A DNA stretch of 64,000 nucleotides from NCBI RefSeq assembly GCF_900116765.1, contig NZ_UETC01000009.1, positions 62,001-126,000 on the forward strand, written 5' to 3'. Below are positions 39,623 to 43,309 of this stretch, in pieces. The DNA is from Jannaschia seohaensis (lineage in GTDB: Bacteria; Pseudomonadota; Alphaproteobacteria; Rhodobacterales; Rhodobacteraceae). Position numbers and translations under genes: made by a program. Numbering within the stretch: position 1 is the stretch's first letter; every line of letters starts with the position of its first letter. The notes beneath the pieces were generated by a model. That model was given only the letters and a program-made list of their open reading frames with translations. It was not told the origin of the DNA and did no database searches.

Positions 39623-40855
39623 ATGCCAGACGATCTTCTCAACAGCTTCAAAACCGGCCCCGACGAGAACGGGCGCTTCGGCGATTTCGGCGGGCGGTTC
39701 GTCTCCGAAACGCTGATGCCGCTGATCCTGGAGCTGGAGCGGCAATACGAGCACGCCAAGACCGACGAGAGCTTCTGGGCGGAGATGCACGATCTCTGGA
39801 CCCATTATGTCGGTCGGCCCTCGCCCCTCTACTTCGCCGAGCGGCTGACCGAGCGACTGGGCGGCGCCAAGATCTATCTCAAGCGCGACGAGCTGAACCA
39901 CACCGGCGCGCATAAGATCAACAACGTGCTAGGCCAGATCATCCTGGCGCGGCGCATGGGCAAAAGCCGCATCATCGCCGAGACCGGGGCGGGCCAGCAC
40001 GGCGTCGCCACCGCGACGGTCTGCGCCAAGTTCGGCCTGAAATGCGTGGTCTATATGGGCGCCCATGACGTGGAGCGGCAGTCGCCCAACGTCTTCCGCA
40101 TGAAGCTGCTCGGCGCGGAGGTCGTGCCCGTGACCTCGGGGCGCGGAACGCTGAAGGACGCGATGAACGACGCACTGCGGGACTGGGTGACGAATGTCGA
40201 CGAGACGTTCTACTGCATCGGCACCGTCGCCGGGCCGCATCCCTATCCGGCCATGGTCCGCGATTTCCAGGCGATCATCGGCAAGGAAGCCAAAGAGCAG
40301 ATGCTGGCCGCCGAGGGGCGCCTGCCCGACACGATCATCGCCGCCATCGGCGGGGGGTCGAATGCGATGGGCCTGTTCTACCCGTTCCTCGACGACAAGG
40401 AGGTTTCGATCATCGGGGTCGAGGCCGGCGGCAAGGGCGTGAACGAGAAAATGGAGCATTGCGCCTCGCTGACCGGCGGGCGGCCCGGCGTGCTCCATGG
40501 AAACCGGACCTACCTTTTGCAGGATGCGGATGGGCAGATCCTGGAGGGGCACTCGATTTCGGCGGGGCTCGATTATCCGGGGATCGGGCCGGAGCATTCC
40601 TGGCTGCACGATATCGGGCGGGCTCAATACGTATCGATCACGGACGTGGAAGCCTTGGAGGCGTTCAAGCTCTGTTGCGAGATGGAGGGCATCATCCCCG
40701 CGCTGGAGCCGTCCCACGCGCTCGCTCATGTGATGAAGATCGCGCCGGAGCTGCCCGCCGATCACATCATCTGCATGAATATGTGCGGCCGGGGCGACAA
40801 GGATATCTTCACCGTGGCTCGCGCCCTGGGCTGGGAGATGGGCGAGGTTCAGTGA
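39623..40855 (+). CDS. trpB: Tryptophan synthase beta subunit
   Basis: PLP enzyme joining indole and serine to tryptophan. The 410-residue protein has [20 protein letters not shown], the PLP lysine in [11 protein letters not shown] (Lys98), [13 protein letters not shown], the phosphate-binding [16 protein letters not shown] and [20 protein letters not shown]. Length and all motifs are normal (TrpB1 type). trpA is not in the 3' neighbourhood; the gene is followed by unrelated sequence. Confidence 0.98.
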
Positions 40856-41157
40856 GCCCGCCCGCGTGGTCCCCGCGCCGCGCATCCCTCGCTCCGCGCC
40901 CGGTTCGGCCCCCCGGCGGCGAGCGGCACCAATTGTCCAAGGCCATGCGTCGGAAGCGATGGGCGGCGCCGGATTTGAGCGCGGCCGGTGGGCTGGGCCC
41001 CGCGCTGAGACGCTCCCGATTGCCGTAAACTTCGGTTTAGGCCCTTCGGTCTGGGGTTTGCGGGACCCGGCGCAAACCCTCGGCCCATAGTGGCGGGGTG
41101 CGGGAACGCTCCATGCCCATCATACGGCACTTCGCCGCGCAACCGATGGAGCATCCC
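40856..41157 (+). other. Spacer with hairpin after trpB
   Basis: A 302-base gap. A 9-bp stem GGGTTTGCG / CGCAAACCC (41054-41062 with 41071-41079, 8-base loop) lies about 80 bases before the PepSY-like gene. It may be a terminator for upstream transcription or a leader structure. Nothing codable was recognised. Confidence 0.5.
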
Positions 41158-41700
41158 ATGACCAAATCCCTGACCCTTTCCGCTCTGGCCGCGCTCTGCC
41201 TGGCCCCTGCGGCTGTTGGGGCGCAGACGACGACCGATCTTCTGGTCGAACGTCTGCGCTCCGACGGCTATACGTGGATCGAGATCAAGAACGGACCGAA
41301 CCAGACGAAGGTCGAGGCGGTGCGGGGCACCGAGGAACTGGAGTTCGTCTACGACAACGTGACCGGCGCGATCCTGGAGGAAGAGCGCGGGCGCGCCGAT
41401 GCGGAGGAAGTGGGGCGCCAGGGCCTGGAGGTCGGGCGCCGGGATCGCGACTTCGTGGACGTGGCGGAGGCGCGGCAGGCGCGCGACGACGATGATGACG
41501 GGGATCGCGGCCGGGGCCGCGGTCGCGATGATGATGACGACGACGACGACGACCGGGGCCGGGACCGAGATCGCGACGACGATCATGGGCGTGGCGATGA
41601 TCGGGACGATGACGACGACCACGATGAAGACGACGATGATGAAGATGAAGATGACGATGATGAAGACGACGATGACGACGAGGATGATCGGGACGATTGA
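41158..41700 (+). CDS. Exported PepSY-like protein with polyaspartate tail (1)
   Basis: 180-residue precursor: signal peptide MTKSLTLSALAALCLAPAAVGAQ, a PepSY-like domain of about 65 residues (TTDLLVERLRSDGYTWIEIK, VEAVRGTEELEFVYDNVTG, ILEEERGRA), then about 75 residues made almost wholly of Asp with Arg, Gly, Glu and His, including runs of nine Asp. The tail is extremely acidic and should bind divalent cations such as Ca2+ in the periplasm or outside. The ATG at 41158 follows GGAG. A paralogue follows after 21 bases. Confidence 0.8.
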   Translation: MTKSLTLSALAALCLAPAAVGAQTTTDLLVERLRSDGYTWIEIKNGPNQTKVEAVRGTEELEFVYDNVTGAILEEERGRADAEEVGRQGLEVGRRDRDFVDVAEARQARDDDDDGDRGRGRGRDDDDDDDDDRGRDRDRDDDHGRGDDRDDDDDHDEDDDDEDEDDDDEDDDDDEDDRDD

Positions 41701-41721
41701 TCGCGGGCGGGCGGGTTCGGC

Positions 41722-42117
41722 ATGCGACGCTTGACCCGAGCGGCCTCGGCCCTCGCCCTTTGCCTCTGTTTGCCCACCGCCGTGGCGGCCGATGCGACTC
41801 AGGACATCATCGGGAGACTTCAGGCCGAAGGCTTCGAGCAGATCAGGATCAGTCGGACATTCCTGGGCCGGACGCGAATCGTCGCGTCCGGCCCCTCTGG
41901 CGAACGGGAGATCGTGCTCAACACGCGGAGCGGCGAAGTCCTCCGCGACTATTTCGATGAAGACGACGACGACCGCGGCGGCAGGGGAGGTCGTGACGAC
42001 GATGACGACGATCGCCACAGCAGCGGCAGCGGCTCCGGCCGTGAAGACGACGATGATGACGACGACGATGACGATGACGACGACGATGACGATAACGACG
42101 ATGACGATGACGATTGA
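41722..42117 (+). CDS. Exported PepSY-like protein with polyaspartate tail (2)
   Basis: 131-residue precursor with the same plan as its upstream paralogue: signal peptide MRRLTRAASALALCLCLPTAVAA, a PepSY-like domain (DIIGRLQAEGFEQIRISRTF, RIVASGPSGEREIVLNTRSG, EVLRDYFDED), then an Asp tail with one run of sixteen Asp, interrupted by a short Ser/Gly linker. The domain pattern GFExIxxxxxxxGxxxIxAxxxxxExE-NxxTGEVL is that of bacterial PepSY-like modules. A membrane-bound LuxR-type regulator follows 33 bases downstream. Confidence 0.8.
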   Translation: MRRLTRAASALALCLCLPTAVAADATQDIIGRLQAEGFEQIRISRTFLGRTRIVASGPSGEREIVLNTRSGEVLRDYFDEDDDDRGGRGGRDDDDDDRHSSGSGSGREDDDDDDDDDDDDDDDDNDDDDDD

Positions 42118-42150
42118 GTTCGCCGCGCGACGGCGCGGCCTCCGCGTCTG

Positions 42151-42717
42151 ATGAAGGGCCAGGCCGCCATCGCCGGTATCGTTGCCGTTCAGGCGGCCTG
42201 TGCGCTGATGGTGGTGTCGGATACGGTCGTCTCGGTCCTGGGTCTGCGCGCCACGCCGCTCGACTGGCAGCTGCGCGAACTTTTGGAGGTGGGAGCGGCG
42301 CTAGGCCTCGTCCTCGGCACGGTCATGGGGGTCGTCGCGCTCCGGCGTTCGGATGCGCGCCGCCGCAAGGTGGAGGACCAGTTGCGGATCGCGTCCGGTG
42401 CGTTCTCGGCCCTGATGGAGCAGCGCTTCGCCGAATGGGGGCTGACGCCTGCGGAGCGGGATGTCGCGCTGTTCTCGATCAAGGGTCTGACCCTATCCGA
42501 TATGGCGGCCACGCGGGGCACGTCCGAAGGCACAATCAAGGCCCAGACCGCCGCCGTTTACCGTAAGGCGGGCGTGACAAGCCGCACACAGCTTGTCTGC
42601 CTGTTCATCGAGGACTTGATGGGCGAGCCGCTGGTGCCCCTACCAAAGAAGGCGGGCGACGCGGTGGAGGCGCACCGGGTCGAGACGCTCCCGCTGGACG
42701 GCGCCGGGGTACGCTGA
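42151..42717 (+). CDS. Membrane-anchored LuxR-type transcription regulator
   Basis: 188-residue protein with two N-terminal membrane helices (about residues 5-30 and 45-63) and, after a charged linker (RRSDARRRKVEDQL), a C-terminal LuxR/GerE helix-turn-helix: LTPAERDVALFSIKGLTLSD, then AATRGTSEGTIKAQTAAVYR and KAGVTSRTQLV. There is no receiver domain, so a signal would be sensed in or near the membrane. The position directly after the two polyaspartate PepSY-like genes suggests it controls or is controlled by them. Confidence 0.88.
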   Translation: MKGQAAIAGIVAVQAACALMVVSDTVVSVLGLRATPLDWQLRELLEVGAALGLVLGTVMGVVALRRSDARRRKVEDQLRIASGAFSALMEQRFAEWGLTPAERDVALFSIKGLTLSDMAATRGTSEGTIKAQTAAVYRKAGVTSRTQLVCLFIEDLMGEPLVPLPKKAGDAVEAHRVETLPLDGAGVR

Positions 42718-42721
42718 GCGC

Positions 42722-43309
42722 TCAGCCGATGCGCGGGATGTGGGGCGCGGCGTCCGGTGGCAGCGTCCCGTCGGCGCGCGGATCGCGCACGACCTCTACC
42801 TCCTGGCGCACGGGGACGAAGCCGGAGCGCATGTAGAAAGGCAGCGCGACGGGGCTGTCGAAGGTGCAGGTGTGCACCGTCATCTCCGGCACGCCCCGCG
42901 CGAAGCCATGATGCAGCGCCGCCTGCATCATCCTGCGCCCCAGCCCCTGGCCTTGCAGCGCCGGAGCGAGGCCGAAAAAGGCCAGCTCGCAGGTGCCGGT
43001 TGTCCGAAAGTCGAGCTCCATCAGGCCCTCGGCGCGGCCATCGCGTTCCAGCACGCGGATCTCCACATCCGGGTCGTGGAGGATGGCGCGCAGTTCCGCC
43101 TCGGACATCCTCAGCCGTGAGAACCAGAGCCAGTCGACGGCGCCGACCCGGGTGAATAGGTCGCGATACCAAGCCGGGTCCGGCGCGGGCACGTGCCGCA
43201 GGTCGAGTTCCGGCGCCGGTGGCGCGGCGGGCGGGCGGTCCATGCGCAGATGGGTGACGATGGCGGCGACGCGGCCGGGCGGGATCGGGTGAAAGCCGTC
43301 GGTGAGCAT
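42722..43309 (-). CDS. GNAT N-acetyltransferase
   Basis: 195-residue acetyltransferase, convergent with the LuxR gene (4 bases between the stops). The cofactor loop is ALQGQGLGRRMMQAAL, preceded by the beta-bulge strand ELAFFGLAP; the C-terminal ALPFYMRSGFVPV is the standard GNAT helix/strand. It is unrelated in detail to the RimJ-like array at 2847-7144, being a stand-alone MarR/RimI-like type. Substrate unknown. Confidence 0.88.
   Translation of the reverse strand: MLTDGFHPIPPGRVAAIVTHLRMDRPPAAPPAPELDLRHVPAPDPAWYRDLFTRVGAVDWLWFSRLRMSEAELRAILHDPDVEIRVLERDGRAEGLMELDFRTTGTCELAFFGLAPALQGQGLGRRMMQAALHHGFARGVPEMTVHTCTFDSPVALPFYMRSGFVPVRQEVEVVRDPRADGTLPPDAAPHIPRIG

Follow-up and report, generated by a model that had tools for sequence, protein, structure and literature searches.

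DbfQ, an exported PepSY protein of Vibrio cholerae, acts on the sensor kinase DbfS, and the accessible sections of the same report describe PepSY genes beside two-component systems as widespread (PMC12714742). They also describe the PA2659-PA2658-BqsRS locus of Pseudomonas aeruginosa, which has two PepSY proteins, the nearer being predicted to bind BqsS, itself reported to respond to iron (PMC12714742). Metal-binding PepSY proteins appear in reviews as well, namely UipA (uranium, iron) and LanP/Lanpepsy (lanthanides). Membrane regulators with a PepSY protein next to them are widespread.

The three-gene unit studied here, A-B-C, is like DbfQ-DbfRS in having one or two small exported PepSY genes 5′ of a membrane signalling gene. 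In DbfQ-DbfRS-like modules, as presented in those sections, the nearer PepSY is the predicted partner, and the operon affects its own expression as judged by its own promoter reporter (PMC12714742). The two differ in that DbfQ-DbfRS has a histidine kinase and a response regulator, whereas A-B-C has a single membrane LuxR-type protein; moreover, A and B have acid tails, of which the accessible sections on DbfQ give no description (PMC12714742). UipA and LanP/Lanpepsy are, like A and B, exported or surface PepSY proteins, and their metal-binding face or residues are acidic; however, in the review passages at hand their metal binding lies within the PepSY domains, and those passages mention neither a poly-Asp tail nor a membrane LuxR-type partner. 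On this comparison the best reading of A-B-C is as a self-regulating one-component counterpart of DbfQ-DbfRS, which would work alike without being a member of that group. An earlier note on this DNA had called the unit undescribed; our literature text search likewise found no paper on it, the nearest description being, in the portions of text retrieved, that of the DbfQ PepSY-kinase-regulator module.

The trio was present where the earlier note had put it in the window (the whole stretch of DNA analysed, 64,000 nucleotides from Jannaschia seohaensis): two exported PepSY-like proteins with Asp tails and a two-helix LuxR-type protein, encoded in tandem (Table 1). The genes share one strand and are separated by 21 nt (A to B) and 33 nt (B to C); trpB (39623-40855) precedes A, and past C there is a GNAT gene on the opposite strand. 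Scanning 40840-42800 for promoters and terminators returned none. A and B both have a signal-peptide-like segment at the N-terminus and are predicted on that basis to be exported. Opposite A and B lies an antisense ORF of 389 aa (window 40849-42018, strand -), rich in Ile and Val, which is a product of the Asp codon repeats and a trap for gene callers.

Table 1. Features of the A-B-C locus, in window coordinates.
Feature	Position	Strand	Description	Size or basis
Gene A	41158..41700	+	exported PepSY-like protein, acid tail, longest Asp run 9	180 aa
Gene B	41722..42117	+	exported PepSY-like protein, acid tail, 16-Asp run, most constant neighbour of C	131 aa
Gene C	42151..42717	+	regulator with two membrane helices and a LuxR-type DNA-binding domain, no receiver	188 aa
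Sixteen consecutive Asp codons in B	42046..42093	+	GAC and GAT mixed	
C codons 31-46	42241..42288	+	predicted outside loop plus beginning of helix 2; includes P36, W39, E43, E46	model, residue counts
Palindrome 1, TAAACTTCGGTTTA	41026..41039		operator-like site, 118 bp 5′ of the A start codon	
Palindrome 2, GGGTTTGCG-N8-CGCAAACCC	41054..41079		variant form of conserved element 2, GGTTTA-N12-TAAACC	

The GerE/LuxR helix-turn-helix of C scored over the Pfam cut-off (E 4e-6; 26.8 bits vs 23.5), and the domain scan gave no receiver or kinase match in C, the sole regulator of the operon. Its hydrophobic segments fit two membrane helices, and all 31 C relatives examined showed at least two hydrophobic peaks; the split copies of L049 and L059 were excluded from that set. 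In these two loci (genomes G024 and G030) C is divided between two ORFs with a B homologue still 5′, possibly as decaying copies or through sequence errors. The structural model of C consists of a helix (2-30), a loop (31-38) and a long helix (39-95) followed by the LuxR-type domain, which resembles those of NarL, DosR and StyR; the presence of a DNA-binding domain would put the C-terminus inside and the loop outside. The best NCBIfam match, to the LIC13292 family of regulators (NF047608), reached 52.2 bits against a cut-off of 200, so that C is not a member; the likeness is that of the DNA-binding part, only profile positions 90-164 matching C. The window's genome has one full-length C, the only other match being a 25-bit hit to a DNA-binding domain. 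ToxR and CadC are also membrane-held one-component regulators, with a DNA-binding domain tethered without kinase or receiver. In those two, a single membrane helix is combined with a sizeable outside domain and a winged-helix mode of DNA binding; C instead combines two helices with a short loop and a LuxR-type domain.

A and B are named PepSY-like because, as single sequences, A matched PepSY_2 (PF13670) at 16.7 bits, under the cut-off of 24.3, and B had no PepSY match in the Pfam scan. At family level, PepSY_2 was found at E ≤ 0.1 in 32 of 67 B rows (best 3e-5), and comparison of the B profile with 12 aligned PepSY homologues that lack a tail gave a 97.7% match, to which the signal peptides present in both profiles may contribute; the one member of the 12 that was scanned carried PF13670 at 44.7 bits. 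The predicted B structure, with a mean pLDDT of 85.9, consists of four strands and one helix. Foldseek with this model returned nothing at E ≤ 0.001 among solved structures, YpeB and YpmB being among the middling rows, and the B profile reached a best E of 0.36 against the sequences of solved structures. NCBIfam supplied no name for A or B, and PF11396 had no match in the window's genome, as it had none for the controls.

We read A-B-C as a self-contained envelope-sensing module in which B sets C, C regulates its own operon and the tails tune the input, and give this reading a probability of about 0.5. A and B would be exported. B, which adjoins C, would probably set the activity of C by acting on its short outside loop, on the model of DbfQ, an exported PepSY protein, acting on a sensor kinase. 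C would be a one-component regulator, its two membrane helices running into a cytoplasmic LuxR-type domain, and by binding the pair of palindromes ahead of A would make the operon self-controlling. Tuning of the input would probably fall to the acid tails, most simply via cation loading. Contact between B and C, DNA binding by C and the sign of control are steps that we infer, and placing Ca2+ first among the loading cations is a weaker guess. The recurrence of PepSY beside C relatives (20/30 loci of genomes with C alone, 10 distinct loci of the class sample) counts for the module; C relatives without PepSY, B tails of low charge and missing palindromes count against it.

Named loci were fetched by match to C alone, and the best 80 of a larger set were compared. 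At 79 of these best 80 a B-type PepSY-like gene lies directly 5′ of C on the same strand, with B homologues at 66 to 95 bits (profile of 18 B sequences); in the exception, L111, the sequence begins at C, at a contig end. The linkage is therefore conserved, as the suggestion of a unit had implied. trpB is upstream in 75 of the best 80, and DUF2237 or pth downstream in many; because the trpB neighbourhood is common to 75/80, much of this linkage represents one inherited locus. These neighbours are what would be seen if the genes stood together only through a stable trpB region, but that explanation is very improbable, given that B occurs without C in just 1 of 187 genomes, that G010 and G016, of the same genus, keep the trpB neighbourhood with no C match and no A-B-C there, and that B-C pairs are found away from trpB (L045, L049, L050) and in another family (L237, L238). 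Some genomes of the genus have no C match. An exported PepSY-like protein lacking poly-Asp is encoded 3′ of C in G002 (L038, L008), and a like gene occurs at the trpB neighbourhood of G016 and G010 (L175:3791-4297; L176:3645-4319).

Joint presence was scored in a family sample of 394 genomes, with thresholds of E ≤ 1e-20 for C and E ≤ 1e-5 for B. C was found in 236 and B in 187; 186 genomes had both, one had B alone (G247), 50 had C alone and 157 had neither (Fisher p 9e-64, relatedness ignored). With B in 187/394, the unit is common, not rare, in this one family of mostly aquatic bacteria.

The gap between trpB and A holds both palindromes. An exact TAAAC-N4-GTTTA was present in 62 of the 75 trpB-operon gaps from the best 80 named loci and missing from 13; the same loci had none in 579 kb of other sequence. 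Alignment of 76 sites gave the consensus CATAAACt..GGTTTATg and a second element, gGtTTA-N12-tAAAcc, 29 bp from the TAAAC start. A palindrome lay within 1.8 kb 5′ of C in 60/80 of the best named loci, 13/33 loci of relatives, 6/30 C-alone loci and 0/24 class loci, 11 of the 24 class rows nonetheless having PepSY. The best 80 named loci had 11 further hits beyond the 1.8-kb span, and four control palindromes gave 0 in every locus set. The site also occurs 5′ of C relatives with no trpB within 12.5 kb (L045, L048) and of others with shorter visible flanks (L194, L196). Since it accompanies C, it is best explained as a binding site for C. A role as trpB terminator was considered and is unlikely, the terminator scan being empty and the palindrome occurring at the trpB-less L045 and L048.

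In the window's genome the exact palindrome occurs once, 5′ of A; the reversed control equally occurs once, so that place, not count, matters. A search for a wider regulon by near-matches to palindrome 1 gave 27 places vs 76 for the reversed control, and none was seen. At least one palindrome was found in 227 of the 394 family genomes; the reversed control is frequent too, which makes genome-wide counts uninformative, and the case rests on position. That the sole operator-like site in the window's genome is the operon's own would also suit a different arrangement, in which A and B form the output and buffer cations or charge in the periplasm, and C senses something else, via its own helices, and merely switches them on. 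The shortness of the predicted C loop (some 8 modelled residues) and the freedom of the tails to vary in length and make-up would be in keeping with this; yet C relatives keep tail-less PepSY partners, which fit a PepSY sensor better than a buffer, and we regard the output arrangement as doubtful.

Most B orthologues carry an acid tail. Runs of at least seven Asp codons had 14 placements in the 4.84-Mb genome, 13 of them at A/B (the longest of A at 41527-41553) and one in rpoD; a reversed-pattern control gave 0 over the whole genome. Among the best 80 named loci, 74 of the 79 B tails have a net charge of −5 or below, so the tails are not missing from orthologues, an outcome that the earlier note had thought would point to a repeat-expansion artefact. 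At least 20% Asp was found in 53/79, an Asp run of at least 5 in 36/79 and of at least 8 in 25/79, whereas 5/79 have little charge; lengths run from 38 to 219 (median 74) and Asp runs from 1 to over 30. Many other B tails are Gly/Ser-rich with Asp or Glu. In L077, L081 and L115 the B tail continues into a non-acidic end, e.g., FNYLTGGLGDDIFF.

All but one of the 91 Asp runs of at least 7 combined GAC with GAT, and neighbouring Asp codons were about as independent as expected (0.500 vs 0.505), which argues against recent slippage of one triplet. The tails might still be neutral disordered repeats, the PepSY domain and C alone mattering; their spread in length and Asp run, the several with little charge and the existence of paralogous partners without tails all sit well with this. 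We nevertheless consider it quite improbable, since 74 of 79 B tails are still acidic, the Asp codons are mixed, and the A slot keeps its tail while its domain changes (the domain-less A-slot proteins having been chosen partly by acidity).

Of the best 80 named loci, 57 showed an A-slot protein, and 33 of 59 A-slot proteins had an Asp run of at least 5. Eight have no PepSY match, some being EF-hand-like and some domain-less. Those of L064 (Jannaschia aquimarina), L092 and L112 were judged EF-hand-like by eye; the L064 protein, the same as that of L036, matched EF-hand_6 at 25.6 bits (cut-off 25). No known domain was found in those of L065, L066, L068 and L126, and that of L094 was masked; as the domain-less proteins were chosen partly by acidity, their tails cannot count as independent evidence. 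In the loci of relatives, an EF-hand-like stretch occurs at L033 and the motif DTDGDGILD at L034. At L191, in a C-alone genome, an acid-tailed protein adjoining C matched EF-hand_5 at 25.5 bits (cut-off 25.9). It appears from these sequences that the A slot retains its acid tail whether it holds a PepSY domain, an EF-hand-like domain or none that is known, and that EF-hand proteins with a like tail can fill either slot. The tails may plausibly bind cations; the EF-hand-like stand-ins for PepSY and the metal-binding PepSY proteins of the reviews speak for this indirectly. Of the envelope metal-sensing or mineral-interacting unit that the earlier note had suggested, the conserved acid-tailed PepSY-like/LuxR unit stands (79/80 linkage), but nothing was found in support of a mineral-interacting role.

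PepSY is a partner of many, not all, C relatives. In 27 of 33 loci of relatives there was a PepSY match within 1.5 kb 5′ of C and in 6 none, the sequences of several of the 33 having built the PepSY profiles and so matching by construction. The C-alone genomes gave 56 C matches, and 30 loci were examined. PepSY lay 5′ of C in 20 of them, two A-type and eighteen tail-less or short-tailed (L200 and L201 belong to the PepSY profile by construction); none was visible at L189, L190, L192, L193, L194, L212 and L213, and L188 and L195 are interrupted by contig ends. The class sample yielded a C match in 20 of 385 genomes, at 24 loci, with PepSY in 11 rows (10 distinct), eight of them in six other families; at L237 and L238 it was B-type PepSY with acid tails.

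A b561-like ORF lies between PepSY and C in 11 of the 18 tail-less or short-tailed loci (PF01292 in the one scanned, L203), and in the class sample two exported CxxCH proteins are encoded directly 5′ of distant C relatives in three genomes (L228, L229, L230). Together with the reported iron response of BqsS, in the accessible sections of PMC12714742, these genes could mean that it is iron, copper or electron flow that the module monitors instead of Ca2+, the tail being an accessory. This seems unlikely for A-B-C itself, because the window has no b561 or cytochrome gene between A/B and C and EF-hand-like domains occupy the slot in some loci.

These partners also permit an extension of the module reading, which we put forward tentatively: one-component envelope sensors of a new alphaproteobacterial class, in which interchangeable exported sensors serve a two-helix membrane LuxR-type regulator. 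The sensors would be acid-tailed PepSY, acid-tailed EF-hand, and tail-less PepSY with cytochrome b561. In the version seen in the window the poly-Asp tail would itself be what senses: the charge state of the disordered tail, set by Ca2+ or another multivalent cation, would reach C through B; and the circuit would be private and self-regulating, with one operator in the window's genome. New here are the palindrome 5′ of the operon, the recurring C relatives with other PepSY proteins, often plus b561, and the EF-hand swaps, and it is sound to say that the unit is more general than the earlier note could see. The family offers a compact, kinase-less version of a PepSY-regulator system. Its candidate operator has a single occurrence in the window's genome, and at some loci its sensor domain is exchanged naturally while the acid tail is retained. 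Two questions thereby become testable: how exported PepSY proteins signal through the membrane, and whether cations can be sensed by a poly-acid tail that is disordered.

The residues of the C loop bear on contact with B. P36, W39, E43 and E46 are identical in 80/80 of the best 80 named loci, which were picked by similarity to C, a choice that favours residue identity; W39, E43 and E46 are kept in 18/18 C relatives beside B. We compared these three residues in the nine genomes that have C alone and match it at E ≤ 1e-61. All three are kept in L187 (A-type partner), L191 (EF-hand-like) and L188 (partner not visible), and together in 0/6 close relatives without visible PepSY (L189, L190, L192, L193, L194 and L195, the last with only 368 bp visible). 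All six have lost E46, in what may be few independent events. Beside tail-less PepSY, E46 is present in 31/31 rows (30 distinct places; L053 = L201). The residue pattern suggests that B may contact the C loop. A narrower idea, that E46 tracks the PepSY partner, was withdrawn because E46 also persists in 16 C relatives that are more distant and lack a PepSY within 1.5 kb (L055, L056, L060, L062, L212, L213, L222, L223, L227-L231, L234, L235, L239).

At L189, L190, L193 and L194, which lack a visible PepSY, a small exported protein of 86-90 aa with no clear family is encoded 5′ of C; it is a possible alternative partner of C relatives.
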